29,145 bases of DNA from a virus. The translations under genes and the position numbers were made by a program. Location: positions 1-29,145 of IMG/VR virus record IMGVR_UViG_3300022200_006537; one strand, written 5' to 3'. Shown piece by piece: positions 2 through 27,330 of this stretch (positions are counted from its first letter, which is position 1; the number at the start of each line of letters is the position of its first letter). The notes beneath the pieces are model-generated. The model ran no database searches. It worked only from the letters and a program-made list of their open reading frames with translations, and was not told where the DNA came from.

Positions 2-295
2 GCATTACGACAGAGTGACGCAATACGACAGAGTGACGCAATACGACAGAGTGACGTAACCAATACGTCAGAGAGTCGTAATCATTACGTCACAGAGTCG
101 TATAATAATAATCAGCTTAACAATCAGTTAAACAATCAGTCTTTAGAGGAGCCTGTAACTCAGGAGACGCGCGAGAATCCTTATGGGTGGAAGCTGCCAA
201 CTCCACGACCAACACGAGAGACTCAACCACCTCAACCCAAGAAGTTTGAAAGATATGAAGATATCGTTGCTCGATACAATGGAGGCCGACGATGA
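2..295 (+). CDS. Replication initiator protein, C-terminal part (partial, lambda O-like position)
   Basis: The frame is open from the left edge to TGA at 293-295, so only the last 97 or so residues are visible. They start with tandem RQSDAI hexapeptides, continue into an Asn/Gln-rich linker (NNNQLNNQLNNQ), then a Pro-rich stretch, and end with KFERYEDIVARYNGGRR. The stop overlaps the next start (ATGA), and the next gene is a DnaC-like helicase loader. The low-complexity linker coincides exactly with iteron-like DNA repeats, as in lambda O, whose gene contains the origin. The N-terminal DNA-binding domain lies outside the window, so the assignment rests on context and repeats, not on a visible domain. 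A DnaD-like or other helix-turn-helix replication protein is equally possible. That it is coding is fairly secure. Confidence 0.6.
   Translation, partial: ALRQSDAIRQSDAIRQSDVTNTSESRNHYVTESYNNNQLNNQLNNQSLEEPVTQETRENPYGWKLPTPRPTRETQPPQPKKFERYEDIVARYNGGRR
6..103 (+). repeat. Five 18-bp iterons inside the initiator gene
   Basis: Copies of TACGACAGAGTGACGCAA lie at 6-23 and 24-41, with TACGACAGAGTGACGTAA at 42-59. Variants TACGTCAGAGAGTCGTAA and TACGTCACAGAGTCGTAT lie at 64-81 and 86-103, each after a 4-bp gap. Each unit is an imperfect dyad (TACG ... CGTA), as expected for a dimeric initiator site. The three in-phase copies encode RQSDAI repeats. The array may extend left of the window. Confidence 0.8.
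110..145 (+). repeat. Three AT-rich 12-bp direct repeats, probable duplex-unwinding element
   Basis: AATCAGCTTAAC (110-121), AATCAGTTAAAC (122-133) and AATCAGTCTTTA (134-145) repeat with a 12-bp period directly after the iterons. Together with TATAATAATA at 101-110 the stretch is only about one fifth G+C. Iterons followed by AT-rich short repeats is the arrangement of lambda-type origins. The unwinding role is inferred from layout only. Confidence 0.55.
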
Positions 296-1209
296 GCGAG
301 ATGAGCAAGCTAGACCTCAGCGATTACACCAACATCATCGCAGAACTCAAAGCAGGAGCGCGCGCTAGAGCGAGCGAGCAACCTCCTAAAGTTGATCTCG
401 ACTTCTCAGATCTTGAGCCTAAGAACCTCGAGGCGAGAAACTGGATAGATCTCAAAGCGGGATATCTAAAGCCAAGGCCGGTCCCCTTCTGTGGTCACTG
501 CCAAGAGGGATGGAACTATGAGTGGCTTCCAAACAGAATGGCTCAGGTGGCCTCCATGTGTCCTCGATGCGAGAAGCCGCGCCGATGGCTAAAGCGACTC
601 GACAAGATGAGACTCCCATCAGATGCAATCAATATGAACTTCTCAACCTACGAGCCAGACTCACCCGAGCAGAAGGCGGCGGTCGAATCTATGCTCGAGT
701 ATCTGAGAGGAGGTTGTCAGGGAGCTCCCCACGGACTTTATGTCTATGGTCAACCTGGCAACGGAAAGACCTCTCTACTTTACTGCTTCGCTCGTGAGGC
801 TGCCTACCTCGGCTTGAAGGTTCGTTATATCTCTCACATCGGCATCATGAACCAGATCAAGGCGAGCTGGAAAGACAAGAACAACAAAGACCCTCTCAAA
901 GACTGGCTCGCCGGTATCGACCTGCTCTTGATCGATGAGTTCGCGGGCGTCGGTGGCTCAGCCAATAAGAGTCCGTGGTGGCTCAGTCAGACTGTGGAGC
1001 TGATCCAAGAGATTTATCAGCAGTGGGGCGCCGGTGAGCTGAGTGTGGTGATGACCTCCAACGTTTATCCTCATCAGCTGCTCAACATCTTCAGCGAGAA
1101 TCCAGCGGTCAAGAGCCGACTTGGCGCGATGTTCCCTCGACCGATTGAGATGGTGGGGAGAGATCGGCGACTTGATCAGGTCGATATGAGCGCTTGGGGT
1201 GTTAGATGA
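292..1209 (+). CDS. DnaC/IstB-like AAA+ helicase loader with N-terminal zinc finger
   Basis: This 305-residue protein has a four-cysteine zinc finger (C67-x2-C70 and C90-x2-C93), a Walker A motif (GQPGNGKT, near residues 153-160) and a Walker B motif (LLLIDEF, near 211-217), followed by a sensor-like VVMTSN segment. That is the plan of DnaC and phage helicase loaders, which bring the replicative helicase to the origin. GGAGG at 281-285 sits 6 nt before the ATG at 292; the ATG at 301 has no better signal. It overlaps the initiator stop by ATGA, the O-P order of lambdoid replication modules. Its stop codon lies within the left arm of a perfect 17-bp inverted repeat. An IstB-type transposition ATPase is unlikely given this context. 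Confidence 0.85.
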   Translation: MSEMSKLDLSDYTNIIAELKAGARARASEQPPKVDLDFSDLEPKNLEARNWIDLKAGYLKPRPVPFCGHCQEGWNYEWLPNRMAQVASMCPRCEKPRRWLKRLDKMRLPSDAINMNFSTYEPDSPEQKAAVESMLEYLRGGCQGAPHGLYVYGQPGNGKTSLLYCFAREAAYLGLKVRYISHIGIMNQIKASWKDKNNKDPLKDWLAGIDLLLIDEFAGVGGSANKSPWWLSQTVELIQEIYQQWGAGELSVVMTSNVYPHQLLNIFSENPAVKSRLGAMFPRPIEMVGRDRRLDQVDMSAWGVR

Positions 1210-1646: not shown

Positions 1647-1826
1647 ATGAGCACATCAGACAAGACAATCTCAGCGCGGGTGAGCTCCCCTGAGCTCGCT
1701 CGACTAGACAAGATCGCTCATCGGCTTGGGTGGTCACGCTCGCAGCTGCTCAGAGAGATCATCTTCAGATTCGTTTCATCACATACACCCTCAACGGCTC
1801 AGAAAGAGTTAACCAACCATGATTAA
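1647..1826 (+). CDS. Ribbon-helix-helix (Arc/CopG-like) DNA-binding protein
   Basis: This 59-residue protein has a short beta segment (TISARVSS) followed by two helices (PELARLDKIAHRLG and SRSQLLREIIFRFV), the pattern of Arc/CopG/MetJ repressors that bind operators as dimers through an antiparallel sheet. AGAGGA lies just before the ATG at 1647. The end overlaps the ssb start by 8 nt (ATGATTAA), so the two genes are translationally coupled. The upstream 11-bp inverted repeat and paired 16-bp sites are plausible operators, making it a likely autorepressor or replication-timing regulator. An antitoxin role is possible by family, but no toxin gene is adjacent. Confidence 0.7.
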   Translation: MSTSDKTISARVSSPELARLDKIAHRLGWSRSQLLREIIFRFVSSHTPSTAQKELTNHD

Positions 1827-2235
1827 CAAAGTGACCCTCATCGGCAACGTCGGACAAGATGCCGAGTTGCGCACTACTCAGAGCGGTCAACCGTTCACCT
1901 ATTTCCGTTTAGCCACACACGAGAACTATCAGGACTCAAGAGGACAGTGGCAGAAGTCCACCGAGTGGCACACCATTAAGGTATGGGACAAGTCATCCAA
2001 TCGCGCCGCCTCTACCATCCGTAAAGGGGCCAAGATCTACATCGAAGGCCAGCTCAAGAGCTTCAAGGGGAAGGATGATAAAACACTTTGGGAAGTACGC
2101 TGCACAACTTGGCGCTTGCTCGATAAAGAGCCTGATCACTCCACCGGTCAAAAGCCTGACCCTTTTCTACCACCTGAGCCACTCTCTCAGAGTCACAACC
2201 CACCATCATGGGGTGATGGATTCACCCGCCGATAA
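1819..2235 (+). CDS. ssb: Single-stranded DNA-binding protein (SSB), OB fold
   Basis: The first 105 residues or so match bacterial SSB closely: MINKVTLIGNVGQDAELR, FRLATHENYQD, TEWHTIKVWDKSS, and KGAKIYIEGQLKSF. It would coat single-stranded DNA during phage replication as an OB-fold oligomer. The total length of 138 is short of many bacterial SSBs. The C-terminus ends GDGFTRR instead of the acidic DDDIPF-type tip used to recruit partner proteins, so it may not dock host SSB-interacting enzymes, or may do so differently. It overlaps the regulator by 8 nt and belongs to the replication module with the helicase loader. Confidence 0.93.
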   Translation: MINKVTLIGNVGQDAELRTTQSGQPFTYFRLATHENYQDSRGQWQKSTEWHTIKVWDKSSNRAASTIRKGAKIYIEGQLKSFKGKDDKTLWEVRCTTWRLLDKEPDHSTGQKPDPFLPPEPLSQSHNPPSWGDGFTRR

Positions 2236-2243
2236 ACACCCAA

Positions 2244-2278
2244 CGAGTATTAATGCGCTCTTATCAGAGAGAAAGTGA
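2244..2278 (+). promoter_or_regulatory. Conserved intergenic element, copy A (before the GIY-YIG gene)
   Basis: CGAGTATTAATGCGCTC, a small hairpin CTCT-TATC-AGAG (2258-2269), then AAAGTGA (2272-2278). The same order occurs at 7827-7859 with a compensated stem. An ATG inside it (2253) is in frame with the endonuclease and would add ten residues, but it lacks a ribosome site. Promoter, processing site or leader are all possible. Confidence 0.5.
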
Positions 2279-2282
2279 AGTT

Positions 2283-2996
2283 ATGGACAAGAGTTCATTT
2301 GAAAGTGATTACTACGTTTATCAACTGTCTTCAGAAGACTTAGGTGTTTATTATATCGGCTCGCATTATTGCACCGGTCGCTCTTACTCATGCACTGATA
2401 AGACCTGCAACTATAAAGGCTCATCTCAAGAGGTGCGCAAGCTTAAAGAGCAACATCCTGAGTTCATTTGGAAGATGGAGATCTTAGCTTTTGCAGATTC
2501 TAGGCAAGAGCTTGCAGACTTAGAGACTCAGATGCTTGAGTGGTACATAGGTGACCCTCACTGCTTAAATAAGATTGTTGCTTCTCCTAGTCGAGCGCCA
2601 GTGCATACAGACCTCGGCCTAGAAGCAATAAGAAATTCAGCGCGTGCCACTCATATCAAGATGAGAGATTCTAGTGGTAAGTGTGTAAGAGTTCTAAGAG
2701 ATGAGCTTTTTGATAAGCTTAGATTAGGCTATAGGATTAAGGGGCCAATCGTTTGGATGAAGAATAATGAGTTAGAGCTTTATGGACAGTTCTCTTCAAA
2801 AACTGTTGGGCAAGTAGCGCATTATTTAGAGCGTCATCGTTGGGAATATGGATATGATCGCAGTTTTACTCTTATCGGCGCCAAAACGTTACTGCGTTCA
2901 CTAAACGTCGAGATAAAAAAACACGTTGTAGTTACCTATGAAATAAAGGAGCTACAACAGGAAAAGTCTCAGCCTCTTGTGCTGCAGATATATTAA
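2283..2996 (+). CDS. GIY-YIG endonuclease, probably a free-standing homing-type enzyme
   Basis: From the ATG at 2283 (GAGAGAAAGTGA just upstream) the protein has 237 residues. A GIY-YIG module is visible at the N-terminus: YVY (residues 11-13), then VYYIGSHY with YIG at 24-26, a candidate catalytic Arg at 33, and the metal-binding Glu in LETQMLEWY (E81). This nuclease fold occurs in phage homing endonucleases of the Seg type. The C-terminal 130 residues are probably the DNA-binding part but show no motif I can name. Base composition is clearly lower in G+C than its neighbours (one sampled line about 38%, against 52-67% in sampled terminase lines), consistent with recent mobility. Copy A of the repeated element lies immediately upstream. 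Confidence 0.75.
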   Translation: MDKSSFESDYYVYQLSSEDLGVYYIGSHYCTGRSYSCTDKTCNYKGSSQEVRKLKEQHPEFIWKMEILAFADSRQELADLETQMLEWYIGDPHCLNKIVASPSRAPVHTDLGLEAIRNSARATHIKMRDSSGKCVRVLRDELFDKLRLGYRIKGPIVWMKNNELELYGQFSSKTVGQVAHYLERHRWEYGYDRSFTLIGAKTLLRSLNVEIKKHVVVTYEIKELQQEKSQPLVLQIY

Positions 2997-3010
2997 CAAA
3001 AGGATGAAAC

Positions 3011-3289
3011 ATGACTGTTTTAGAAGCATTAGGCTTTTATAATCAAACACTAAGCCTTGAAGACAACATTAAGGTAATACGTTCTTTAGACTCCATTCAG
3101 CGCCAAGCCTTGATGCTTAGCTTGATTAATGATCTGAGAGAAGAGATTGAAGACTGTTTTAGAGATGATGAAATCACACAAGCTTTCTTAGCTTTCAAGT
3201 CAACTCAGACTCTTGAGGAGTTGATGGAAGCTGCGGTGGAGAGAGCAGTCTTACTAGGCATGATTGAGCTAATAGGCCCGGAGTCATAA
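3011..3289 (+). CDS. Unknown 92-residue acidic helical protein
   Basis: I do not recognise this family. The product is mostly helical by composition and acidic, with LREEIEDCFRDDEITQAF and TLEELMEAAVERAVLLGM as likely helices. AAAAGGATGA precedes the ATG. It shares the low G+C of the upstream GIY-YIG gene, so both may have arrived together. Its stop overlaps the next start by one base (TAATG). No membrane segment, cysteine cluster or nuclease motif is visible. Confidence 0.6.
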   Translation: MTVLEALGFYNQTLSLEDNIKVIRSLDSIQRQALMLSLINDLREEIEDCFRDDEITQAFLAFKSTQTLEELMEAAVERAVLLGMIELIGPES

Positions 3290-3501
3290 TGAAACAAAAA
3301 GAACCTGATCAACGCGCGCGCGAAGCAGAAACTCACCGAGTTCTCAAAGAGCTTGACCGCCTCTTGGTGATGCGCCTCGAGGAACAGCTTGACCTCAATG
3401 ATCCTGATGACCTCGATGTGTATAATAAGACCAAAGCTCTACGAGATCACATTAGGGAGACTTTGAAGAATGCCAAAGCAATCAACCAAACGAGAGGTTA
3501 A
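3289..3501 (+). CDS. Unknown 70-residue charged protein before the terminase
   Basis: A highly charged, helical product (RAREAETHRVLKELDRLL, DLNDPDDLDVYNKTKAL). It starts at a TAATG overlap with the preceding gene and overlaps the next gene by 32 nt, which supports translation as part of one operon. The position just before the small terminase suggests an accessory role in packaging, but no family is recognised. The composition returns here to the higher G+C of the terminase genes. Confidence 0.6.
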   Translation: MKQKEPDQRAREAETHRVLKELDRLLVMRLEEQLDLNDPDDLDVYNKTKALRDHIRETLKNAKAINQTRG

Positions 3502-3904: not shown

Positions 3905-4145
3905 AGTCTACCTCAGGCGCTCGTGGTCGCGTTATGCCTCCCATGAGCGTGAGGACTATCAGATTCACGGATGGCATCGCCTCATCTGCTGTGAAGACTT
4001 CAGTGAGCCTCATCAGATCTGCTATCACGACATCTTAGATGTTGAGCGCGGCGCTAAGGTCAGCGTGATCAAAGTCGGATCAGATAAGGTCAGGCTTGAG
4101 GAGAGGTGGCTCGTCACCGATGCAGGGCTAAAGCTGGATGATTAG
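3870..4145 (+). CDS. Unknown 91-residue protein between the terminase subunits
   Basis: The start is set at ATG 3870, because GAGGAGG (3857-3863) sits 6 nt upstream; the longer frame from 3834 has no ribosome site. The N-terminus is strongly basic (KQQTAKKQTTRVYLRRSWSR). The middle holds His and Cys residues (GWHRLICCEDFSEPHQICYH) that could bind metal, and the remainder looks like beta strands. It overlaps the large terminase start by 8 nt. No family is recognised; location suggests a packaging accessory protein. Confidence 0.55.
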   Translation: MKQQTAKKQTTRVYLRRSWSRYASHEREDYQIHGWHRLICCEDFSEPHQICYHDILDVERGAKVSVIKVGSDKVRLEERWLVTDAGLKLDD

Positions 4146-5502
4146 GCTCAACGAGCTCCAGCATGGGATCATCTCTCGGATCGCTCGCAGTGAGAGAATC
4201 ATAGCGGCGCGGTGTGGGTGGGGATCAGGCAAGACCTCGGCGCTTGTCTTTGCTCTGCTGTTTATCTCTCGGTTTAGACCTGGCACTAGTTCACTACTCG
4301 TCACCGACACGAACCCACGCTACAACTCAGTATTGATGCCTGAGATGGAGAAGTGGTTATCCAAACTCGGTTGGACGTATAACCATACTCTGCGACAGTG
4401 GTCAGCGCCGAATGGCTCAACCGTGTGGTGTCGTTCGTATTATCGACCTGGCACACGAGACGCCACCCACAACCCGCTCGAGGGGCTCAACATCACCTCG
4501 GGTGTCTGCCTCATCGATGAGTGTCAGACGCTCTCAGCAGAGGTGGCTCATAAGGCGATGGGTCGATTGAGAGCGGGGCCGAGCCCCATCATGATCCTTG
4601 TGGGTCTGCCGGTGAGCGGCGCTTGGTGGTGCAACCTGGCAGAAGAGGCCGGCTGCCAACCTCTCCTCTATACCTCATATGTGAACTCAGCCAACCTTAG
4701 CGCTGAATGGTTCGAGGCCACTAAGCTTCTGCCTCAGGCTGAGCGTGAGGCTATGGTGATGAACAAGCCACGGCCACCCTCAGGGCTCATCTACTCTGAG
4801 TTCGATGAGTCGCGCCACGTTATCAGCGGTTGGAAGTATAAGCCCTCGATGAGCGGACGTATCGCCATCGACTGGGGATTCAGAAAACCATCGGTGTTGA
4901 TTATCGTGCATGACGATGAACTTGGCGCCGATGTGATCTGCGCTGAGATCAACCCTCAAGAGGTGACCACCGCTCAACTAGCCACCCTTATCCTAGCTGT
5001 GGCGTGGCCTCGCTCGCTGAGGAGCTCTGCACCGGCTGAGAGGATATGGCTAGATAATGGAGTCGCTGACAAGGCCGGTAGAGCGCGAAATGATCAGACA
5101 GGGCGCTCAGCCTTCCGAGCAATGAGAGGTAATCCACCTCATGGGCTTGGTTTACCCTTGCGGTCGAACACCGACCCCATCAGGACAGATGTGCTCAATG
5201 GGATTCAGCGATTGAAGCGGGCATTTGCTCGAGGTCAATATCTCATCACTAAAGAGGTGTGGGATAATGGCGAGCGCGCTCTAGGGAACTCAATCAGGAA
5301 GGCCATCATGAGCTATGGATGGGACAACAAAGAGCAGCCTAAGAAGGATGGGCGAGAAGATCCACTCGACGCTCTCCGCTATGACTGCATCACTTGGAAC
5401 TGGTCAGATTCCCTAGTTGATCAGCGCAACTATCAACCACGAGCGACAGCCACCAAAGACCGCCGAGTCAGAGTAGGTGGCGCTAAGACAAGGGGATTCT
5501 AA
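4138..5502 (+). CDS. terL: Terminase large subunit (packaging ATPase and nuclease)
   Basis: This 454-residue protein has a Walker A motif (GWGSGKT, residues 27-33), a Walker B with catalytic Glu (CLIDE, D127-E128), and an RNase H-like nuclease domain beginning at IAIDWG (D245), with further acidic residues in EDPLDALRYD (D408, D411, D416). These are the hallmarks of the motor that cuts concatemeric DNA and drives it into the prohead through the portal. The length is normal for the family. The start overlaps the upstream stop (ATGATTAG). A five-gene block separates it from the portal, whereas the two are often adjacent. Confidence 0.93.
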   Translation: MIRLNELQHGIISRIARSERIIAARCGWGSGKTSALVFALLFISRFRPGTSSLLVTDTNPRYNSVLMPEMEKWLSKLGWTYNHTLRQWSAPNGSTVWCRSYYRPGTRDATHNPLEGLNITSGVCLIDECQTLSAEVAHKAMGRLRAGPSPIMILVGLPVSGAWWCNLAEEAGCQPLLYTSYVNSANLSAEWFEATKLLPQAEREAMVMNKPRPPSGLIYSEFDESRHVISGWKYKPSMSGRIAIDWGFRKPSVLIIVHDDELGADVICAEINPQEVTTAQLATLILAVAWPRSLRSSAPAERIWLDNGVADKAGRARNDQTGRSAFRAMRGNPPHGLGLPLRSNTDPIRTDVLNGIQRLKRAFARGQYLITKEVWDNGERALGNSIRKAIMSYGWDNKEQPKKDGREDPLDALRYDCITWNWSDSLVDQRNYQPRATATKDRRVRVGGAKTRGF

Positions 5503-5723
5503 TGGGTGATAAGGTCAACCATCCTGATCATTATCAGGCGCAGGGCTATGAGGCTATTGACATCATTGAGGCGTATAAGCTGAACTTCGCTCTAGGTTCA
5601 GCGCTGAAGTATATCCTCAGAGCAGGGCGCAAGCCTAACGAGCCAGCCACCGATGATCTTTGTAAGGCTATTTGGTACTTGCAGAGAGAGCTAAAGCGCA
5701 GGAACGACAATGAAGATCTATGA
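5502..5723 (+). CDS. DUF3310 family protein, possible nucleotide kinase (T7 gp1.7-like)
   Basis: The 73 residues fit the small DUF3310 domain: VNHPDHYQAQGYEAIDII, then ALKYILRAGRKPNEP, then DDLCKAIWYLQREL. T7 gp1.7, which carries this domain, phosphorylates dGMP and dTMP. The gene starts at a one-base overlap with terL (TAATG, with AAGGGG upstream) and overlaps thyX by 14 nt. With ThyX making dTMP, the pair would form two consecutive steps towards dTTP for phage DNA synthesis. Domain membership is fairly clear; kinase activity for this short version is inferred. Confidence 0.75.
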   Translation: MGDKVNHPDHYQAQGYEAIDIIEAYKLNFALGSALKYILRAGRKPNEPATDDLCKAIWYLQRELKRRNDNEDL

Positions 5724-6393
5724 TGACGGGATAGGTGAGGTGACTTACGTGGCTCACATGGGTCACGACTCAACGCCAGCTCACTCGGCGCGGGTGTCTC
5801 TCTATGAAGAGGCGACAAGCTCAAAGTTGCAGATGACCAATAGAGACGCGGTACTCATTAGGTATCTAGCACAACATGGCCACACCTCACCCTTTGAACA
5901 CTGCTCAGCCACCCTTAAGATCACCTGTCCTCTATTTGTTCGTTCTCAGATCATGAGGCATAGAACCTTCTCTTATAATGAGGTCAGTCGCCGCTATACA
6001 TCAGAAGACGTTCAGTTTTGGACTCCATCAGCTTTGAGAGCTCAACATCAAAAGCGCTTGCAGTGCTCGACTGATGAGGTGGTTCATGAGTCTGATCACT
6101 GGCTGGAATGTTGGGACCAACACCACGAGAACTGCATGACGTTCTACCAGCTTATGCTCGCCTCAGGTGTGGCTCGAGAGCAAGCGCGCGCCATCCTGCC
6201 TCAGTCCACATACACTCACTTCTGGATGAGCGGGAACCTAAACAACTGGGCTAAGTTTTTGAGGCAGAGGTTAGATTCACACTCTCAGCCTGAGACAAGA
6301 GCTGTGGCTTCTGCGGCTCGTGATATACTTATGCAGCACTTCCCCATATCTCTCAGCGCTCTCCTAGATGACGCTGAGAAAGTCGAGCATTGA
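5710..6393 (+). CDS. thyX: Flavin-dependent thymidylate synthase ThyX
   Basis: The signature RHR-x7-S is intact (R83, H84, R85 and S93 in RHRTFSYNEVSRRY). Other conserved blocks are HTSPFEH (residues 58-64) and the C-terminal LPQSTYTHFWMSGNLNNWAK. ThyX methylates dUMP to dTMP using methylenetetrahydrofolate, FAD and NADPH, acting as a homotetramer. The 227 residues are a normal size. It overlaps the DUF3310 gene by 14 nt. It secures dTMP for phage replication independently of the host enzyme. Confidence 0.95.
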   Translation: MKIYDDGIGEVTYVAHMGHDSTPAHSARVSLYEEATSSKLQMTNRDAVLIRYLAQHGHTSPFEHCSATLKITCPLFVRSQIMRHRTFSYNEVSRRYTSEDVQFWTPSALRAQHQKRLQCSTDEVVHESDHWLECWDQHHENCMTFYQLMLASGVAREQARAILPQSTYTHFWMSGNLNNWAKFLRQRLDSHSQPETRAVASAARDILMQHFPISLSALLDDAEKVEH

Positions 6394-6566: not shown

Positions 6567-7346
6567 ATGAAGATCAGAGAGAGGAGGCTTGCAATCGTCC
6601 TTCTCGATCTCATCGGCTCAACTCAGTTTGTTCAGAAGGTGGGCGCTGTCAAGGCGGCGCGGTGGCTTCAGTATCACGACAGGCTCACCCGCTCTCTCAT
6701 GTATCGCTTCTCAGGCAGAGAGATAGATAGGTCAGATGGATTCCTGCTGAGCTTCGAGGAACCTATCAACGCGGTGAACTTCGCGCTTCATTATCAGCTC
6801 ACAGTACCACCACGAACTCGCCTCAATACTCGCGTGGGCGTGCACGTCGGATGTATTGCTGAGGTGACACAACATGAGCTAGATGTGCTGGTGGGCGCTA
6901 AGCCGGTGGAGTTAGAGGGCATCGCCAAGAATATCGCGGCGCGAACCATGAGCGTCTGTGGTCCAGGTCAGGTGCTACTCACAGAGGAGGCGTTCAAGGA
7001 GATTCGAGGCCACACCAACAGCATGACACCCAAGGGAACAAGATATGTGATGGTAGGCCTCTATCGGTTTAAGGGTGTTAAAGAGCCTCAGGTGATTTAT
7101 GCTGTCGGCTCACGCATCGAAGCTCTCCAGCCACCTCCGAGCAGTGAGAAGGCCAAACGACTTGGAGGGCCTAAGCGGGTGAGGTCGCGCGCTCGAGATC
7201 GCAAGCTAAAAGAGTGGGTGAGTTGGGCGCTGCCTAGATGGGCCTTCATCAATATCATTTACATCCTCTGCCTGATGTGGCCTTGGTTGACTCATCAGCT
7301 TCCCATCATCTTAGAGATAGTGAGGTTCATCTATGGAGAAGATTAA
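6567..7346 (+). CDS. Class III nucleotide cyclase homologue with C-terminal membrane segment
   Basis: Residues 8-182 follow the class III adenylate/guanylate cyclase homology domain: AIVLLDLIGST (metal Asp D14), DRSDGFLLSF (metal Asp D57), TRVGVHVG, then GIAKNIAARTMSV with the transition-state pair N122 and R126, GPGQVLLTEEAF, and the closing LYRFKGVKEPQVIYAVG. The residues that select the base differ from adenylate cyclase: the usual Lys four before the second metal Asp is Ile53, and the usual Asp seven before the Asn is Glu115, so the product cannot be assumed to be cAMP. After a basic linker (195-215) comes a hydrophobic segment (226-256), probably a membrane anchor. GAGGA lies 7 nt upstream. 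The end overlaps the next gene by 14 nt. A non-catalytic decoy is an alternative. Confidence 0.85.
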   Translation: MKIRERRLAIVLLDLIGSTQFVQKVGAVKAARWLQYHDRLTRSLMYRFSGREIDRSDGFLLSFEEPINAVNFALHYQLTVPPRTRLNTRVGVHVGCIAEVTQHELDVLVGAKPVELEGIAKNIAARTMSVCGPGQVLLTEEAFKEIRGHTNSMTPKGTRYVMVGLYRFKGVKEPQVIYAVGSRIEALQPPPSSEKAKRLGGPKRVRSRARDRKLKEWVSWALPRWAFINIIYILCLMWPWLTHQLPIILEIVRFIYGED

Positions 7347-7803
7347 GACTGAGAGAGAGGTGACGAGCGAGATCAAAGCGCGGCGCGGTTGGTGGTTCAG
7401 TGTCTTCTTTATGATGCTCGTCGTCTTCCTGATCCTCTTCTTGACCTATGTTGAGATTGTCGAAAAAAATAGAGATGTGCTCGTTGGTATCCTCGGCATG
7501 ATAACAGGGTCGATCTCCTCGATGATGGCTATAGCCTCAGGTCGCGACCCATCAGAGGTCGAAGAACTGAAAGATAAACTCTCATCAGCCAACGCCGATA
7601 GAGAAGCGCTCATCGCTCGCCTCAGAGATGCGCAGATTCAGATGCAACTATTAAGAGAGCAGATACATGAACTGCAGGTGGCGGTGATTGATAAGCTCTC
7701 TATCTTCGCTGGTGATCACCCCATCAAAACCAAAGATGAGAACTCGGTCATCCTTCATCCATCAGTTGAAGAGTGGCTCCCTCACAGTGGGCTAGACAAA
7801 TAA
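7333..7803 (+). CDS. Two-helix membrane protein with coiled coil, partner of the cyclase
   Basis: The 156-residue product has a basic N-terminus, two predicted membrane helices (about 20-40, WWFSVFFMMLVVFLILFLTY, and 49-69, VLVGILGMITGSISSMMAIA), a coiled coil (73-117, with EVEELKDKL and LREQIHELQ heptads) and a soluble tail to 156. TGAGG lies 7 nt before the ATG, and the gene overlaps the cyclase by 14 nt, so the two are coupled. No cyclic-nucleotide-binding domain is visible. The layout could be a membrane effector, a scaffold that clusters the cyclase, a superinfection-exclusion protein or a holin-like protein. A holin-like gene already lies next to the lysin at 26652. Confidence 0.7.
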   Translation: MEKIKTEREVTSEIKARRGWWFSVFFMMLVVFLILFLTYVEIVEKNRDVLVGILGMITGSISSMMAIASGRDPSEVEELKDKLSSANADREALIARLRDAQIQMQLLREQIHELQVAVIDKLSIFAGDHPIKTKDENSVILHPSVEEWLPHSGLDK

Positions 7804-7884: not shown

Positions 7885-9297
7885 ATGCACGATCACACTC
7901 AAGAGCGTGAGACTCGACATCTTAGAGCGCTCTCACCTCGATTTAGAACGCGGGGAATCACTGGCACTCAGATCAGTGGTGGGGTGATCACGGGCAAAGA
8001 ACAGAACGCTCAACTCACCGGCCTCAACTGGGTGCAAGAGGCTGAGGAGATGTTGAGGACTGACCCCATTGTCAGGCGCTCATGGCATATGCTCAGGCAG
8101 ACTCTTCTCTCTGCCGCTTGGAGATTCGAGCCAGGGATTAAAGATGATCCTACTGCTGAGGAGCTCGCGCGGTTCGCCAATGAGGCTTGGGGCTTCGATG
8201 GATACTCAGGTCAGATGTCGATCAGTTGGGAAGATCAACTAGCATATCTGTTTGAGTTCGTCCCTCTCGGCTATCGATACGCAGAGGAGATTTACAAGGT
8301 TGGTCCTGACTCACGCGGTGAGACTAAGGTATGGCTATCTCATTACGCCGACCGCGAGCCAAGCGCTCATCAGAAGTGGCTGAGTCGAGACGCTCAACAG
8401 CTCGATGGGGTGATTCAGAACACAGTAGGCATCACTTACACTCCTGAGCCCATCCCTGCCAACAAGCTCTTACTACTCACCCTCAACAAGACCGGTTCAA
8501 ACTTTGAGGGCGTCGGGATGCTTCGTCCAGTGTGGTGGTGGTGGCGTACTAAACAGAGAGTGGCTAACCTGATGTGCGTTGGCCTCGATAGATGGGCCGT
8601 CCCATCTCCAAAGGTTGTGGTCGACCGCTCTCAGGCTGAAGCGCTCGGTTTATCTGATGGTGACATCGACGCTATGATTGATGATGCAGAAGCTCAAGCA
8701 AGAGCTTTCATCTCAGCTGAGCAGAGCTATCTAGTAGAGAACGCCGCTGTTAAGTTCGATACCTACGCAGCCACTCCTAATCTCTACGCTGATGGCCCCA
8801 TCAATATCATAACCAAATGTGATTCTCAGATAGCGGCCGCCTTCCTCACTCAGTTTGCCGACCTCGGGAACACCGAGACAGGAGCGCGCTCAGTTGGTGA
8901 GATTCATCTCTCTGTCTTCAGACGAGCTGCCATCAACCTTTGTGATCTAGTCGCTTCAGCTGTAAGCGGGATAGATCGAAGAGGCGCTGGAACTATAGGA
9001 CGCCTCATCCGCTGGAACTATGGCGCTGTTGATCCTTCTAAGCTACCTCGCCTCACCCATACCGGCCTCGATACTGATGACCTGGCTGAGTCACTCGGCA
9101 TGTTGCCAGGTCTAGTCCAAGCAGGGCTACTCACTCCTGATGATGAGCTCGAGCGAGCAATCAGAGAGAGACTCGGCGCGGGTGTATTACCTGATGAAGC
9201 TGAGCGCTCACCAATCTCAAGAGTCTCTGCTGTGGGTGGTGGTGGCTCAGTCTCAGCGCTCGCTGAGCAGCTCATCAGGAGACGCCGAGATGGTTAA
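7885..9297 (+). CDS. Portal protein, Mu-like (DUF935-type)
   Basis: This 470-residue protein resembles Mu-type portals: an early segment DPIVRRSWHMLRQTLLSAAWRF typical of the clip and wing region, the aromatic run PVWWWWRTKQRV, and a C-terminal helical part. The portal forms the dodecameric ring at one vertex through which DNA is packaged and ejected. It follows the conserved element at 7827, has a strong ribosome site, and is followed by a Mu-I-like protease, as expected in Mu-like head modules. The C-terminus is Gly- and Arg-rich and overlaps the next gene by 8 nt. Other portal families are less likely. Confidence 0.8.
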   Translation: MHDHTQERETRHLRALSPRFRTRGITGTQISGGVITGKEQNAQLTGLNWVQEAEEMLRTDPIVRRSWHMLRQTLLSAAWRFEPGIKDDPTAEELARFANEAWGFDGYSGQMSISWEDQLAYLFEFVPLGYRYAEEIYKVGPDSRGETKVWLSHYADREPSAHQKWLSRDAQQLDGVIQNTVGITYTPEPIPANKLLLLTLNKTGSNFEGVGMLRPVWWWWRTKQRVANLMCVGLDRWAVPSPKVVVDRSQAEALGLSDGDIDAMIDDAEAQARAFISAEQSYLVENAAVKFDTYAATPNLYADGPINIITKCDSQIAAAFLTQFADLGNTETGARSVGEIHLSVFRRAAINLCDLVASAVSGIDRRGAGTIGRLIRWNYGAVDPSKLPRLTHTGLDTDDLAESLGMLPGLVQAGLLTPDDELERAIRERLGAGVLPDEAERSPISRVSAVGGGGSVSALAEQLIRRRRDG

Positions 9298-11233
9298 GAT
9301 TAAGAAGCGCACCCAAGCGCAGACACCAGCTCCACCGAGCGACCGCAAGACGGGAAGCGCCAAGAATCCTGAGGGCTCAGCGAGTGGCGCTCGTGGTGGT
9401 ATCGAGATAGGCGAGCAAGCCACCAAAGCTCTTGAGAAGATGCGAGATGATCACAACAAGCGCTTCACTAAACCTGCTCGTCGTGTAGACCTCGGCACAC
9501 TCAAAGCAGTCTTTAGACGTGGCGCGGGTGCTTTCTCGGTGAGCCATCGACCAGGGATGACTCGCAATCAATGGGCGCTCGCTCGAGTGCGCACCTTCTT
9601 AAAGCTCGTGGCTACAGGTCAGCGCAAGAAAGCATATACAGGTGACCTTGATCTTTTGCCCAAGGGCCACCCTCAGCGCAGAGAGGCAGAGACTCAGGCT
9701 GAGCTGTTAGCTATTCCTGACAAATACTCTCACATCGACTTCACCCCACCCAAAGGAGCCCGAGACGCCGCCAAGCGAGCGCTTGAAGTGAGAGCTGATA
9801 AGCCCTCCTCTCAGCGTGGGATGACTCCTGTTGGCATCGCGCGCGCTCGTGACCTCAGCGCGGGTAAGCAGCTATCTCCTGAGACAGTCAAGAGGATGCT
9901 CGCTTACTTCACTCGTCATGAGGTCGACAAGCAGGGATCAACATGGGATCAGCAGGGCAAGGGCTGGCAGGCGTGGCAGGGTTGGGGAGGTGATGCCGGT
10001 TATGCTTGGGCTCGAAAGGTAGTTAAGCAGATGGACTCAGCAGACAAGAAGACACAAGCGCTCAGAGCTTATGGTGAAGCTATCCAACTCTCAGAGGCGC
10101 CATCTTACAATGTCCCCGATGGGCTCACCATCGGTCGACCCTTCAAGACTCTCTCACTCGGCCAAGTCTCCTCTCGGATGAGCGGTGAAGCCATCGGCAA
10201 AGAGATTGACCTAGAGATGCTCGGCGAGATGCTGAGAGTCTATCAAGAGCGCAAAGATGCAGATCCAGTCATCATCGATTGGCAGCATGCTACCTCACCC
10301 TTTAACGGTGGGCCTCCTGCTCCACCTGAGAGCGGGAACGCGCTTGGCTTAATCGTTGATCTAGAACTCAGAGAAGATGGTCTTTACGCTGTCCCTGCCT
10401 ACAACGAGCGCGGCTTAAACGTGGTCAGGGAGGCGGGCGGCGTCTTGTGGTCTTCGCCTGAATTCATTACCGGCGATGTTTACGACCGTAGTGGAGGAGA
10501 GAAAGTCGGATCGGCTCAACTCCTTGCTATCACACTCACCCCTCGGCCTGCACAGTCTCACGACAAGATAAGCCGAGTAACACTCAATGAAAGGCTACAC
10601 ATGGATATTGAGTCTATGTCACCTGATGAGCTCAAAGCTGCTCTTGTCGCCAAGGACGAGATGGTCAAGGAGCTTGAAGAGATGATCAAAGAAATGAAGG
10701 CAGACGCTGAAGCCAACATGAAGACCGAATCAGAAGAAGAGGTTGAGTTGGCAGAAGAGAAGCCTAAAGAGGATGAGGCCGAGAAGATGGCCGAGTCTGA
10801 AGAGAAGAAGGAATACAACAAGATGAGTGAGTCACTCACCGCTGATGTAAGCCTCCTCTCAGAGCTTCAGCTTCTCCGAGAGAGCGTAGCAGAGCTCACC
10901 GCTGAGCGTGACGCTATCAAACGTGATCAGGCTGTTAGCGCTCTACTCTCAGAGGGCAAGATCTCACCTGCTGAGCAAGCAGTAGCTGGCAAGGCGTGGG
11001 ATCTCAAAGACTCATCACCTGAGTTTTGGCAGATGTTCAACGAGCGCTCAGCCTCTTCCGCTGTCCCTCTCACTGAGGTGGGGCATGGTGCAAGCGGCGC
11101 TGAGATCTCACAGCAGACTCTTAATGAGGCTGTTCTTAAGCTCAAGCAAGAGAAGGGCGTCACATATAGCGAAGCGCTTGACCTCTTCCGCGCTGAGAAT
11201 CCCGACTACTACAATAAGGCCTTTGGAGTTTAA
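9290..11233 (+). CDS. Multidomain head maturation protease, Mu I-like, with scaffold tail
   Basis: The start is ATG 9290, with AGGAG 8 nt upstream; the open frame reaches further back, but only into the portal gene. The 647 residues divide into a basic N-terminus; a domain around 65-130 (RGAGAFSVSHRPGMTR, then QWALARVRTFLKL); a second around 155-250 (GIARARDLSAGKQLS, WGGDAGYAWARKV); a Mu-I-like protease around 300-430 (VIIDWQHA, SSPEF, LLAITLTPRP); then an acidic Glu/Lys-rich coiled coil from 442 and a C-terminal segment ending in SEALDLFRAENPDYY. Mu I cleaves scaffold during head maturation. The two N-terminal domains look like conserved phage modules that I cannot name with certainty. The arrangement is a fusion longer than Mu I alone. 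Confidence 0.75.
   Translation: MVKIKKRTQAQTPAPPSDRKTGSAKNPEGSASGARGGIEIGEQATKALEKMRDDHNKRFTKPARRVDLGTLKAVFRRGAGAFSVSHRPGMTRNQWALARVRTFLKLVATGQRKKAYTGDLDLLPKGHPQRREAETQAELLAIPDKYSHIDFTPPKGARDAAKRALEVRADKPSSQRGMTPVGIARARDLSAGKQLSPETVKRMLAYFTRHEVDKQGSTWDQQGKGWQAWQGWGGDAGYAWARKVVKQMDSADKKTQALRAYGEAIQLSEAPSYNVPDGLTIGRPFKTLSLGQVSSRMSGEAIGKEIDLEMLGEMLRVYQERKDADPVIIDWQHATSPFNGGPPAPPESGNALGLIVDLELREDGLYAVPAYNERGLNVVREAGGVLWSSPEFITGDVYDRSGGEKVGSAQLLAITLTPRPAQSHDKISRVTLNERLHMDIESMSPDELKAALVAKDEMVKELEEMIKEMKADAEANMKTESEEEVELAEEKPKEDEAEKMAESEEKKEYNKMSESLTADVSLLSELQLLRESVAELTAERDAIKRDQAVSALLSEGKISPAEQAVAGKAWDLKDSSPEFWQMFNERSASSAVPLTEVGHGASGAEISQQTLNEAVLKLKQEKGVTYSEALDLFRAENPDYYNKAFGV
10601..11233 (+). CDS. 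Possible nested scaffold protein from an internal start
   Basis: An in-frame ATG at 10601 (codon 438 of the protease gene) is preceded by TGAAAGG (10588-10594) with a 6-nt spacer. It falls exactly between the protease domain and the acidic coiled coil. The product would have 210 residues: helical MSPDELKAALVAKDEM, a Glu/Lys-rich region, and the conserved C-terminal segment. Phage lambda and Mu make their scaffolds from such internal starts in the protease gene. The start is inferred from sequence and precedent only. Confidence 0.45.
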   Translation: MDIESMSPDELKAALVAKDEMVKELEEMIKEMKADAEANMKTESEEEVELAEEKPKEDEAEKMAESEEKKEYNKMSESLTADVSLLSELQLLRESVAELTAERDAIKRDQAVSALLSEGKISPAEQAVAGKAWDLKDSSPEFWQMFNERSASSAVPLTEVGHGASGAEISQQTLNEAVLKLKQEKGVTYSEALDLFRAENPDYYNKAFGV

Positions 11234-11235
11234 TC

Positions 11236-11628
11236 ATGGCTACTACTGACAACATCGTATCATTCGTGGCTAACTCAGCGATCACTGAGTTTGCTCTTGT
11301 CTCTGTTTTGTCAACTGGAAAGATCCAAGTCACAGCCTCAGAAGATGAGACTAACTGTGTTGGGATCGCTCAGCGTGCATGCTCAGCAGGTGACTCTGTT
11401 GAGGTCGTTGTACTCGGCAAGTCTCGCGCTATTGCAGGCGGCGCTATTGCACCAGCTACCATGAATCTTCTCATGTCCGACGCCTCAGGGCATCTCGTCG
11501 CATTTGATGAGGGTGCAGGCAACTATGCTGTAGCTCGCATGATCCCCAACATTAACCAAACAGGCGCTTCAGCAGGTGATCAAATCACTGTTGTCTTTAC
11601 CGGCCCTGTTGCTCTAACTGCATCTTAA
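11236..11628 (+). CDS. Head decoration or capsid-cement protein (DUF2190-like)
   Basis: A 130-residue, mostly beta product rich in Ala, Val and Ser: STGKIQVTASEDETNCVGIA, GDSVEVVVLGKSRAIAGGAI, and SDASGHLVAF. This matches small capsid-stabilising proteins often placed between the head protease and the major capsid gene. GGAG lies 7 nt before the ATG, 2 nt after the protease stop. It would bind the outside of the capsid after expansion. A structural role is likely; the exact family is less sure. Confidence 0.7.
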   Translation: MATTDNIVSFVANSAITEFALVSVLSTGKIQVTASEDETNCVGIAQRACSAGDSVEVVVLGKSRAIAGGAIAPATMNLLMSDASGHLVAFDEGAGNYAVARMIPNINQTGASAGDQITVVFTGPVALTAS

Positions 11629-11639
11629 GGAGCTGACTA

Positions 11640-12638
11640 ATGGCTAGTTCATACAGTAATCTGCATCCAGTCGACCAAATCCTATCCAACCTCGTCGTTG
11701 AGGCTGTCCCAAGTGATGACCAGCTCATCGCTGATAAAGTCTTTGAGAGCATCAAGGTTCCTGAGCGATCAGGCACCATCTTGCTTGAGGAGACTCGGAA
11801 CTTCATGGGCGCCGGCGCGGGTCTTGACCTCGAGCGCGCACCGGGGAGCTCACGCACCAACATCGGTGGATTCGACCGAAGCTCAACCACCTTCAAGGCG
11901 AAGATCTACGCGGCTCAAGACTCCATCGCGATGGAGGATATCTTCGACTCTCAGTATCCAGGGAGCGAAGAGGCGCGCATCGCAAAGAAGGTCGCTCGAG
12001 TGATGAAGCTCGCTAAAGAGAAGCGCGCTGCTGATCTCCTCTTCAGCACCTCGCTCTTTGCAGGCTACACCTCAGCACCTGCTACTAAGTTTGACGCTGT
12101 TGGCGCTGAGCCTCTCACTACCTTGCACAGCCTCAAAGATACCGTTTACTCAAACGCTCATGGGATCAACCCTGACACCATGATCTTAGGCCGTGACGTC
12201 TTCCGCGCTCTTGCTCGTAATCCTGAAGTCCGTGGCTATGTTGGAGACAGCTCTAGCGGGATCGCTTCAGGCAATCGCATCTTGGCAGATGAGGCGGTTC
12301 TCTCTGTGCTTCGTGATGTGCTCGGTATCCCCAACATCATGGTAGGTGCTGCGCTTCGAGACACCGCTGTTCCTGGCGCGGCTAGCTCTGAGGCTTACAT
12401 CTGGGATCGTGAGACGATCTTCATGGGTATCCTACGCGGCTCAGATGCCATCGTTCAAAAGAGCGGTAATGTTAAGGGCATGCCAACGGCAGCGCTTAAC
12501 CTCGAGTTTGGTGGCATGATCGCGGGTCAGTATGACTCATTAGATCGTACTCGGCGCTATGTCTACGCTGAGGAGGTCCACAGCTTCAAGCTCATCGATG
12601 CTTCTCTTGGTTACGTCCTCAACGACTGTTTGACCTGA
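11640..12638 (+). CDS. Major capsid protein
   Basis: A 332-residue protein with the order expected of HK97-fold capsid proteins: an N-terminal segment (NLHPVDQILSNLVVEAVP), an E-loop-like stretch (TRNFMGAGAGLDLERAPG), a long helix (EEARIAKKVARVMKLAKEKR), a P-domain segment (NPDTMILGRDVFRALARNPE) and a C-terminal A-domain with EAYIWDRETIFMGIL. Hundreds of copies form the shell. The place after the protease and decoration genes, a strong AAGGAG ribosome site and the length all fit. No separate N-terminal delta domain is present, consistent with a separate scaffold. Confidence 0.85.
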   Translation: MASSYSNLHPVDQILSNLVVEAVPSDDQLIADKVFESIKVPERSGTILLEETRNFMGAGAGLDLERAPGSSRTNIGGFDRSSTTFKAKIYAAQDSIAMEDIFDSQYPGSEEARIAKKVARVMKLAKEKRAADLLFSTSLFAGYTSAPATKFDAVGAEPLTTLHSLKDTVYSNAHGINPDTMILGRDVFRALARNPEVRGYVGDSSSGIASGNRILADEAVLSVLRDVLGIPNIMVGAALRDTAVPGAASSEAYIWDRETIFMGILRGSDAIVQKSGNVKGMPTAALNLEFGGMIAGQYDSLDRTRRYVYAEEVHSFKLIDASLGYVLNDCLT

Positions 12639-25900: not shown

Positions 25901-26006
25901 GCCAACCACATACTCTCAAGCTTCAGACAATCACAGAAGTGATGCTTATTTAGCCAACTCTTCTGATATCATCAACCTAACCACACCTGCTCAGGAGTTC
26001 AGCTGA
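22923..26006 (+). CDS. Large tail tip / hub protein (1027 residues)
   Basis: This is the longest complete protein of the window and lies just upstream of the lysis genes. The N-terminal 230 residues look like a tail-associated domain (GVGGTPIQTHSIGLEGSFVP, DEISLDIVPLTALID). A middle part (about 300-650) is mixed. A later domain includes GIREDIVTQIVFEFDFDPVE and a phage-hub-like segment with SYIDVGSYLTVSSPHLRGY. The C-terminal 80 residues are beta-rich and Thr/Ala-rich. Size and position fit a central tip or baseplate hub that contacts the host surface. The exact family is not identified; no lytic domain is obvious. Confidence 0.65.
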   Translation: MSITSQHGRRVFALQVAGLKYRYHSHPPPASSNLDAEIATGVAYEDIEAITEVGAFSASIDPSGGVAQYSSTSVTLGIDRQRGGLSDPGVVFGRCGARSSPALARLTTSASRQDTTFYLDADVRSTAEAIVHIGAETVHTTLRTATSITVTRGVGGTPIQTHSIGLEGSFVPEISNHITTFRGRRAKLYMAHRYPNGNTTDFVEVLNGFIEASPTIEQGDEISLDIVPLTALIDTDLADKGISQTRLLQGYHYFDGVNGSVLEYALTLEIDRDSRSVIVYPDTTAAITANTFQVSVLQTRGFTDLFDDFDVTLPQGPDADDYIREHPRYPKLRREADTFLPDGVFPNTITYDGSIPGYVINADGALTNALSAGEISAADTLRISLPNVEVKQHELGSEEVKRWPDVINDTLESDGPSSTQGLSGGFARWRLQAGPEIRAEKLSDSPFPAGIWLWNDAAFFRSAASNYWILGEDWPLCWRASGTSTQLPTLSRLAYPIDLGLEGEPYSESFTDNALIQKDKILINTVERTALRALRDIPAAYYQQFESAILVEGSLGLPTSATAGEFYYVTVEHYDRNQEQVVKQVFKCTHETTATFGGSDVGVILHIADDNDFFQNQSFGDWTDVERALIYRGGQLTGERPGTVILKLLESGGGNNVNGDYDLLGIGLNIDSSDIDERSFLAIDAAATFTLSDNYAGDGTNLRDTIDAMLRLMGAVLVMKRDPTTGRSRLAAVPIGNERTDAAAATVTADQWIAAPPPRWGIREDIVTQIVFEFDFDPVEDKYRSEVIFNNQEAINRYGGERSSISLTLPGVNSEQFGRGAGDNFAYFLPTAARLFNLFANPLRTWSGSIGTGQSSYIDVGSYLTVSSPHLRGYSDTYGVTNGVGMVRSIRQELMKEGCQLELVVAGLAARYWNASARVTATPTATAVTVAADDFSDSTEADASFFEAGDVVDYLPKGNHDGAITGLEVASVTGHTIVFTAAHNITALNGTLEPTTYSQASDNHRSDAYLANSSDIINLTTPAQEFS

Positions 26007-26659
26007 TGCCAACAAAAGCAGAGCTAGAGGCGACAATCAACGACCTCAAACATGATGTAAGGCGCCTCGAGCGTTCACTAGGTCAGGCTGAGCTTGACCT
26101 TCAAGCGCTACCTCATCGCGACGTCACGTATCCAAGACCACCACGAGATGAAAGATCCGTCGAGGCCGTCGCTCGTGGGATGAGTGAATGGCAGAGTGTT
26201 GTCAAAGAGCCTGATCGACGAATCAACACCTATATCAGATCAGTCGAGGGGCTCGGTTGGACGTGGGAGAAGGAGTACGTCAAGAATGGTCAGTTTGCTT
26301 GGTGTGGAGCTTTCGCCGCCTTCTGTTGGACGGCAGTTAAGCCGAGCATCAGAAAGAAGATCTTTCCATCTTGCTACCGTCTCTACTCTAACTGGTCACA
26401 GACCTCACGACACATTGACCCATCTAAGATGATGCCCGGTGATATCGTGGTGGTCTATTCCGGCAAGCACGCGACCCAAGGTGACCACATCACCATCTGT
26501 CGTGGTGAGCCTGTTGATGGAGTCTTTGAGACTGTCGAGGGGAACGCTCATGGCACGCTCGGCGATGATACCCATGGTGAGGGTGTGATTATTCGCGACC
26601 GCTCACTAGATGAGGTGGCCCACGTTTACCGCTTACTCTCGGAAGACTTCGATGAGTAG
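26006..26659 (+). CDS. Endolysin-like CHAP cysteine peptidase/amidase
   Basis: The 217-residue protein begins with a short coiled coil (residues 5-35), followed by a CHAP-like papain-fold domain: catalytic Cys in FAWCGAFAAFC (C100), GDIVVVYSG, catalytic His in GDHITICRG (H161) and the closing TVEGNAHG with E178 and N180. Such enzymes cut peptide or amide bonds of peptidoglycan at lysis. There is no signal peptide or membrane segment, so release would need the holin. The next gene overlaps it by 8 nt and encodes a holin-like protein. A virion-bound peptidase is an alternative. Confidence 0.8.
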   Translation: MPTKAELEATINDLKHDVRRLERSLGQAELDLQALPHRDVTYPRPPRDERSVEAVARGMSEWQSVVKEPDRRINTYIRSVEGLGWTWEKEYVKNGQFAWCGAFAAFCWTAVKPSIRKKIFPSCYRLYSNWSQTSRHIDPSKMMPGDIVVVYSGKHATQGDHITICRGEPVDGVFETVEGNAHGTLGDDTHGEGVIIRDRSLDEVAHVYRLLSEDFDE

Positions 26660-26930
26660 CAGCCTAACAGGTAAAGCAGGAGGCCGGAAGGCGCTTGGCT
26701 TCTACGCGGCGCTAGGCTGTTGTTTTATGCTCGCCATGAGTGGCAAGGCGACCACTGAAGCGCTCGGCCTCATCAACACTTTATATCTCTCGTTTGCAGG
26801 TGCCAACGTGTGGGCTAAAAAGGTGTCACCAACTGAGGTGATTCAAGCTCAAGCTCAGGCTCAGCAGATGCAACAACCTCAACCCCAAACCCAACCCCAA
26901 CCTCAAGAGACTACACTGGAGAAGCCATGA
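26652..26930 (+). CDS. Holin-like membrane protein
   Basis: ATG 26652 overlaps the lysin stop and gives 92 residues. Two hydrophobic helices are visible (about 14-30, ALGFYAALGCCFMLAMSG, and 35-54, TEALGLINTLYLSFAGANVW). They follow a GKAGGRK start and precede a Gln/Pro-rich tail (QAQAQAQQMQQPQPQTQPQP). The GGRK-to-two-helix layout with AANVW resembles small phage holins that let endolysin through the inner membrane. Adjacency to the lysin supports this. The low-complexity tail is unusual. Confidence 0.65.
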   Translation: MSSSLTGKAGGRKALGFYAALGCCFMLAMSGKATTEALGLINTLYLSFAGANVWAKKVSPTEVIQAQAQAQQMQQPQPQTQPQPQETTLEKP

Positions 26931-27322
26931 GACTCGGAGTTCAGTACCCCATCCACGCTGGTGGATATACCGCAGCCTATAACGCCTCAGCAGTCGCTGA
27001 CACTGATTGGCACAGCCTCAGCTCGACCGACTTTTACGACACACGAACAGGGACACAGCTCGACGCTGGCCTCAGCTTCGCCTTCTTGGAGGTGGTGAGC
27101 GGATCAACTGACACGGTGAGCTATTGCAAGTTACGCGCCGCCGGTGGTGCAGGTGATGGCGTGGCCAACTCAGATGGCGTCATCCCTGTACTCGGCGCCT
27201 ATAAGGTCGACGTGCAAGCGCTTGTCTCAGGCTCAAGCGTGACCTCAGTGGCCTATAAGAAGGCCGCCGCCGGTGATTCTTTCGTGATCTATGCAGGCTT
27301 CAACGCCACGACCAACGTGTGA
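26927..27322 (+). CDS. Unknown 131-residue virion-like protein
   Basis: It starts with an ATGA overlap after the holin-like gene. The product is rich in Ala, Gly, Ser and Val and looks beta-structured (LSFAFLEVVSGSTDTVSYCK, YKVDVQALVSGSSVTSVAYK), ending in DSFVIYAGFNATTNV. No family is recognised. Position before the fibre gene suggests a small decoration or fibre-base protein. Confidence 0.5.
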   Translation: MRLGVQYPIHAGGYTAAYNASAVADTDWHSLSSTDFYDTRTGTQLDAGLSFAFLEVVSGSTDTVSYCKLRAAGGAGDGVANSDGVIPVLGAYKVDVQALVSGSSVTSVAYKKAAAGDSFVIYAGFNATTNV

Positions 27323-27330
27323 GGTGAGAT

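Follow-up and report, generated by a model that had tools for sequence, protein, structure and literature searches.

The question raised by this locus is whether a set of repeats lying inside a viral gene forms an origin of replication, or whether the repeats belong to the encoded protein, to gene regulation or to the messenger RNA. The DNA analysed (the window) is a 29,145-bp stretch of a virus, and starts with an open reading frame that is open at its 5′ end at the contig start (positions 2–295, plus strand). This frame is the C-terminal part of a replication initiator gene; the N-terminal winged-helix domain lies beyond the left end of the window, and the complete gene is found at 1336–1935 of the relative L002, which is 99.3% identical to the window across window positions 2–1202. 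The sequence-only reading had described five dyad iterons with start spacings of 18, 18, 22 and 22 bp in the coding sequence before a DnaC-like loader, three AT-rich 12-bp repeats after them, and repeats in the encoded peptide, RQSDAI and NQLN (given here as NNQ(L)). All of these are present, and the coordinates are confirmed. It had also pointed to the sequence left of the window, where L002 supplies two extra iterons and the winged-helix domain.

The iterons are 17–18 bp long and all lie inside the 2–295 reading frame: TACGACAGAGTGACGCA at 6–22 and again at 24–40, TACGACAGAGTGACGTA at 42–58, TACGTCAGAGAGTCGTA at 64–80 and TACGTCACAGAGTCGTA at 86–102. The distance between their half-sites is 11 bp, roughly one turn of the helix. 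The 18-bp-spaced iterons are in frame with one another, and only the last two, each 22 bp on from its predecessor, are in other frames (the fourth iteron in the second reading frame and the fifth in the third). The pattern TACGNC-N5-GNCGYA is confined to the array within the 29 kb, where base composition leads one to expect 0.12 matches. In the best dyads of this type, five of the six arm positions match and one is mispaired. We note that the array's left edge (GCATTACGA) coincides with the contig start and that the near-identical L002 has seven iterons, with two more 18-bp units, compared with five in the window. The copy number in the window is therefore doubtful, and may reflect either assembly collapse or real variation.

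The AT-rich repeats follow directly, as TAATAATCAGCT (106–117), TAACAATCAGTT (118–129) and AAACAATCAGTC (130–141). They fall within a predicted DNA unwinding element at 101–148, which is the least stable 48-bp duplex of the whole window. A genome-wide comparison comes from the relative L006, the ends of whose contig overlap by 127 bp; we take it to be a complete circular genome of 36,402 bp (G002). Its six top-scoring iteron sites (23.0–24.8 bits) are those of the initiator-gene array, with the next site at 11.1 bits, and no 36-, 48- or 60-bp duplex in the genome is less stable than its AT repeats. The lambda O/ori design proposed from the window is supported by this coincidence of iterons and weakest duplex, which is unique in the complete genome. 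In a stability ranking that includes several partial contigs, G002 being complete, the AT repeats are also the 48-bp minimum in the window, G003, L003, L004, L007, L009 and L010; in G005 they come third and in L012 fourth. The cumulative GC skew, suggested earlier as a check, has no switch at the array and is monotonic with the coding strand; it is uninformative. The AT-repeat motif alone was rejected as a means of finding relatives: the extra matches examined were all unrelated, being Asn/Gln-rich linkers or chance AT-rich sequence, and NNQ repeats by themselves therefore mean little.

The initiator frame overlaps by 4 nt the gene that follows it, which starts at 292 and encodes a DnaC-like helicase loader of 305 residues (292–1209, plus strand; phrog_50, E = 1.3e-27; PF01695, E = 5.5e-7) with the Cys pairs CGHC...CPRC and the Walker A motif GQPGNGKT. 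The replication region continues with a single-strand DNA-binding protein, SSB (1819–2235, plus strand; Pfam SSB, E = 7e-26). In G002 a RecT-like gene lies upstream (just below the Pfam cut-off), and a HATPase-domain protein is encoded in the replication region (25921–27897, equivalent to L056 7621–9597; PF13589, E = 3.6e-6). About 1 kb 3′ of the loader in the window is a homing-endonuclease-like gene (2253–2996; phrog_314, E = 1.3e-9). Positions 2278–3313 are without a counterpart in the L006 alignment, which suggests an insertion or replacement. Further to the right are a terminase-like large subunit (4138–5502) and the flavin-dependent thymidylate synthase ThyX (5710–6393; PF02511, E = 1.1e-47), and then a nucleotidyl-cyclase-like gene (6567–7346; PDB relative 1ybt, E = 3.6e-11) overlapped by a gene for a predicted membrane protein (7333–7803), which has a weak SLATT-type match (4.9e-5). 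This pair, which sits between thyX and the portal gene and is conserved in G002, resembles a Pycsar-like arrangement; a PADLOC search with it gave no match. Positions 7885–12638 match a Mu-type portal (PF06074), a head maturation protease-like protein and a major head protein. No near phage match was found, and a pattern search for a host across 84,980 bacterial and archaeal genomes gave no relatives of the loader or the initiator.

The complete initiators consist of a winged helix (approximately residues 1–90), a linker that carries the array, the AT repeats, and a short C-terminal part. AlphaFold2 gives a pLDDT of about 90 for residues 1–90 and below 50 for the linker, and it predicts the C-terminal part with low confidence, with one helix near the C-terminus. 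In the PDB the fold neighbours are winged-helix proteins, archaeal Orc1 and MarR-type proteins among them; in a set of viral models (BFVD) they are helix-turn-helix proteins, with a replication protein O at E = 8e-4. In PHROG searches the "replication initiation (O-like)" family was matched at E = 2e-6 to 4e-5, and most members matched either this family or "replication initiation protein" at 2e-6 to 1e-4. The initiators have no Pfam match above cut-off and do not match PF04492 (Phage_rep_O), for which the lambda O control gave E = 5.7e-36. A comparison with nine O proteins using hhalign gave E = 0.005 with a probability of 7% (reversed control, 0.54), and sequence searches found no useful solved structure for the initiator. 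The upstream protein is thus a predicted winged-helix DNA-binding protein. The sequence-only reading would have failed if this protein were not a DNA-binding initiator, and both the predicted fold and the weak O-like matches speak against that outcome.

A search with the loader identified 15 loci, and 12 sequences including the window were analysed, all of which carry the initiator array. L004 and L005 were not recounted, their initiator protein being the same as that of L006, and the contigs L015 and L016 begin within the loader gene. The layout is common to all 12 sequences, and the iteron arms are of five types: T (TACGWC; window, L002 and L006), C (TATGTC; L003, L008, L010 and L013), Q (CCCTC; L007 and L014), H (CCATC; L009 and L011) and R (TGCGWC; L012). 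Arrays of the T, Q and H types start with in-frame 18-bp units and end in two 22-bp steps (L014 is less regular), C-type arrays have a spacing of 22 or 23 bp throughout, and in L012 six 18-bp units precede the atypical dyads. At approximately 2048–2086 of L012 there is a chimeric iteron, with left arm TACGTC and right arm GGCGGG, and then a CCCGCC-N5-GGCGGG dyad. L010 keeps a lone H-type iteron 3′ of its AT repeats. The L012 chimera is probably a recombination scar inside the array, and both scars would fit with recombination.

A step of 22 bp shifts the reading frame, so that within an array one and the same dyad is read in all three frames, producing unrelated peptides, for example LCQPDIP, PMSERHT and SVTVTYP in L003. 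We compared this with a null in which the same proteins were recoded with synonymous codons 20,000 times, for 11 arrays (L012 was left out). Identity between iterons in different frames was 76–90%, against 38–53% after recoding, and the observed value was never reached (p ≤ 5e-5); dyad symmetry exceeded the null to the same degree (p ≤ 5e-5; 2.5e-4 for L011). Since cross-frame identity goes beyond what synonymous recoding gives, conservation acts on the DNA of the array rather than on the peptide. The peptide repeats are a by-product of the 18-bp units, and C-type arrays with 22-bp spacing are without them. The earlier suggestion that the linker is read both as DNA and as protein holds for the DNA; its protein half is not clear, the peptide repeats following the 18-bp unit. 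That reading had also asked how iterons compare among relatives, and had named as its refutation relatives that keep the peptide repeats with the dyads destroyed. The reverse is found: the dyads are retained, with arm sequences of five types, while the peptide changes. The frame-rotating array is a clean example of a DNA function constraining a coding sequence.

Pairs of relatives differ sharply along this region. Between L010 and L009, identity is approximately 95% in the sequence before the initiator gene and 93% in that of the loader, compared with 54% in the DNA for the winged helix. L010 and L008 give the mirror image: their winged helices are 92% identical, against 54% upstream and 70% in the loader. 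L008 and L014 have loaders 88% identical and winged helices 57% identical. L003 is 95.9% identical to the window from window position 164 rightwards, with a winged helix 61% identical to that of L002; here the upstream side has diverged too (72% between L003 and L002), and the right-hand junction alone is sharp. In the swapped pairs homology is lost some six codons into the gene and returns at the AT repeats or immediately beyond them. The C type changes label four times on a tree of the DnaC-like protein and once, as a single clade, on a tree of the winged helix. These comparisons indicate that winged helix, iterons and AT repeats have been swapped together, at least three times, between otherwise close phages. 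Such natural reciprocal domain swaps link the initiator domain to the iteron type. In the nine complete proteins, residue 56 (L002 numbering), which lies in the aligned recognition helix, varies with bases 3 and 4 of the iteron arm: it is R where these are CG (types T and R), S where they are TG (type C), A where they are CC (type Q) and P where they are CA (type H). We hypothesize that residue 56 forms a recognition code for the iteron arms, which would be a small and directly testable code for origin specificity.

It is very probable that the array is an origin lying in the gene of its own initiator, at which winged-helix dimers bind, AT repeats open and the loader adds the helicase, the whole forming a cassette that is exchanged. 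The conservation of the array DNA, its uniqueness, its co-exchange with the winged helix and the location of the stability minimum can be read from the sequences themselves; the steps of binding, opening and helicase loading are modelled on the lambda precedent. An N-terminal winged-helix dimer would bind each dyad iteron, with specificity determined by the iteron arms, and several initiator dimers would assemble into an O-some-like complex that strains the adjoining AT-rich 12-bp repeats until they open. The DnaC-like loader would then put a host DnaB-type helicase onto the opened repeats. Winged helix, iterons and AT repeats travel as one cassette, which related phages have exchanged. Several observations count against the origin reading: the GC skew has no switch at the array, profile similarity to lambda O is weak and Phage_rep_O gives no match, the AT repeats are not the weakest duplex in G005 and L012, and in L012 the dyad proximal to the unwinding element is of another arm type (CCCGCC..GGCGGG) and is accompanied by the chimeric dyad, and such non-cognate sites are awkward if cognate sites are required in this position.

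Three other explanations of the repeats were weighed against this one. The repeats might be a protein feature, a low-complexity and expandable linker (RQSDAI, NNQ) whose DNA repeats are merely a consequence. The 18-bp units are indeed in frame and vary in number, AlphaFold2 has low confidence in the linker, as for a disordered spacer, and linkers of the NNQ type are present in phage proteins of no relation as well. However, in most arrays the two final iterons, and in the C type every iteron, lie in different frames and encode unrelated peptides, and both cross-frame identity and dyads go far beyond synonymous recoding. The linker explanation is refuted for the iterons as a whole and possible for the NNQ segment; overall we consider it very improbable. 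The array might alternatively act as RNA, a structured mRNA controlling translation of the initiator or the loader, and transcripts of the window, one C and one Q array do fold better than shuffles (z −5.0 to −8.1), as is to be expected of any palindromic array. The H-type array is hardly structured (z −1.9), the predicted structures are unlike between types, and the mispaired arm position of the best T-type dyads suits protein half-sites rather than a stem. An RNA function also does not predict co-exchange with the winged-helix domain, and of the explanations considered here it is the one to which we give the least credence.

The dyads could instead be operators, bound by the initiator as an autoregulator or transcription factor within its own gene, without any origin. 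Dyads are typical of operators, and the winged-helix fold is near MarR-type regulators in the PDB. This explanation is very improbable, though slightly less so than the other two. Against it, the sites lie approximately 270 bp into the gene, where there is no sigma-70 promoter-like match, and occur nowhere else in the complete genome G002; they adjoin the weakest duplex of that genome, and the next genes are those for the helicase loader and SSB.

As to why the cassette varies, it may be a self-contained origin-specificity cassette, kept diverse in a manner resembling immunity types and recombined between two conserved anchors, the initial MKQHEA codons and the sequence just after the AT repeats. 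The driver would plausibly be escape from competing phages, satellites or origin-directed nucleases that recognize the iteron type. We offer this tentatively, and regard it as somewhat doubtful.

Phage TP901-1 has an intragenic origin, on which our literature search gave no paper. In lambda, dimers of O bind iterons situated midway along their own gene, and an AT-rich region opens (PMC7466680); P22 and phage L are reported to have different iterons in gene 18 (PMC8022706). The present locus resembles lambda O/ori, P22 gp18, phi80 gp15, HK544 and mEpX1 in having an N-terminal winged-helix initiator with dyad iterons in mid-gene, an AT-rich opening region directly 3′ of them, a helicase loader or helicase gene next, and arms that vary among phages at similar positions (PMC7466680; PMC8022706). 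Iteron spacings in O-type genes are 20, 24 and 23 bp in lambda, P22 and HK544, 20, 24 and 24 in mEpX1, and approximately 20–21 in phi80. Compared with lambda, the spacing here is of 18-bp units with two 22-bp steps, or 22–23 bp throughout; the AT region consists of 12-bp TAAYAATCAG repeats; a DnaC-like loader replaces lambda P; and the initiators, which do not match Phage_rep_O, are approximately 190–250 residues long compared with 299, with the winged helix from the start. The Q-type arms CCCTC-N5-GAGGG are those of lambda iteron 1 (L014 ATCCCTCAAAATGAGGG, lambda ATCCCTCAAAACGAGGG); despite this, the recognition helices of Q-type initiators and lambda O do not match by eye, and the shared arms may therefore be a case of convergence. 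Phage mEpX1 is similar in that an O-type initiator is followed by a DnaC-type loader, and differs in that its O has a Phage_rep_O annotation and its iteron geometry is lambda-like.

The closest parallel for the exchange is found in the PLE satellites of Vibrio cholerae, where the DNA-binding domain of the initiator is co-exchanged with the iterons and an origin-directed nuclease is the proposed driver (PMC8263062). In RepA_N/ori of PLE, as here, domain and iterons are exchanged together and the rest of the initiator is retained (PMC8263062). The PLE origin is intergenic and apart from repA, whereas at the present locus a single gene holds the domain, the iterons and the AT repeats side by side, so that one crossover pair moves all three. 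With iterons within the initiator gene, an adjacent AT region, an N-terminal winged helix and a neighbouring loader, the locus has the features of the lambda-type design. It would work like lambda O/ori; its initiators do not match PF04492, and the remote homology is suggestive. We describe it as a putative lambda-O-like intragenic origin, a divergent form of a known design, which would extend lambda O/ori to a group of uncultured phages in which lambda O models fail.
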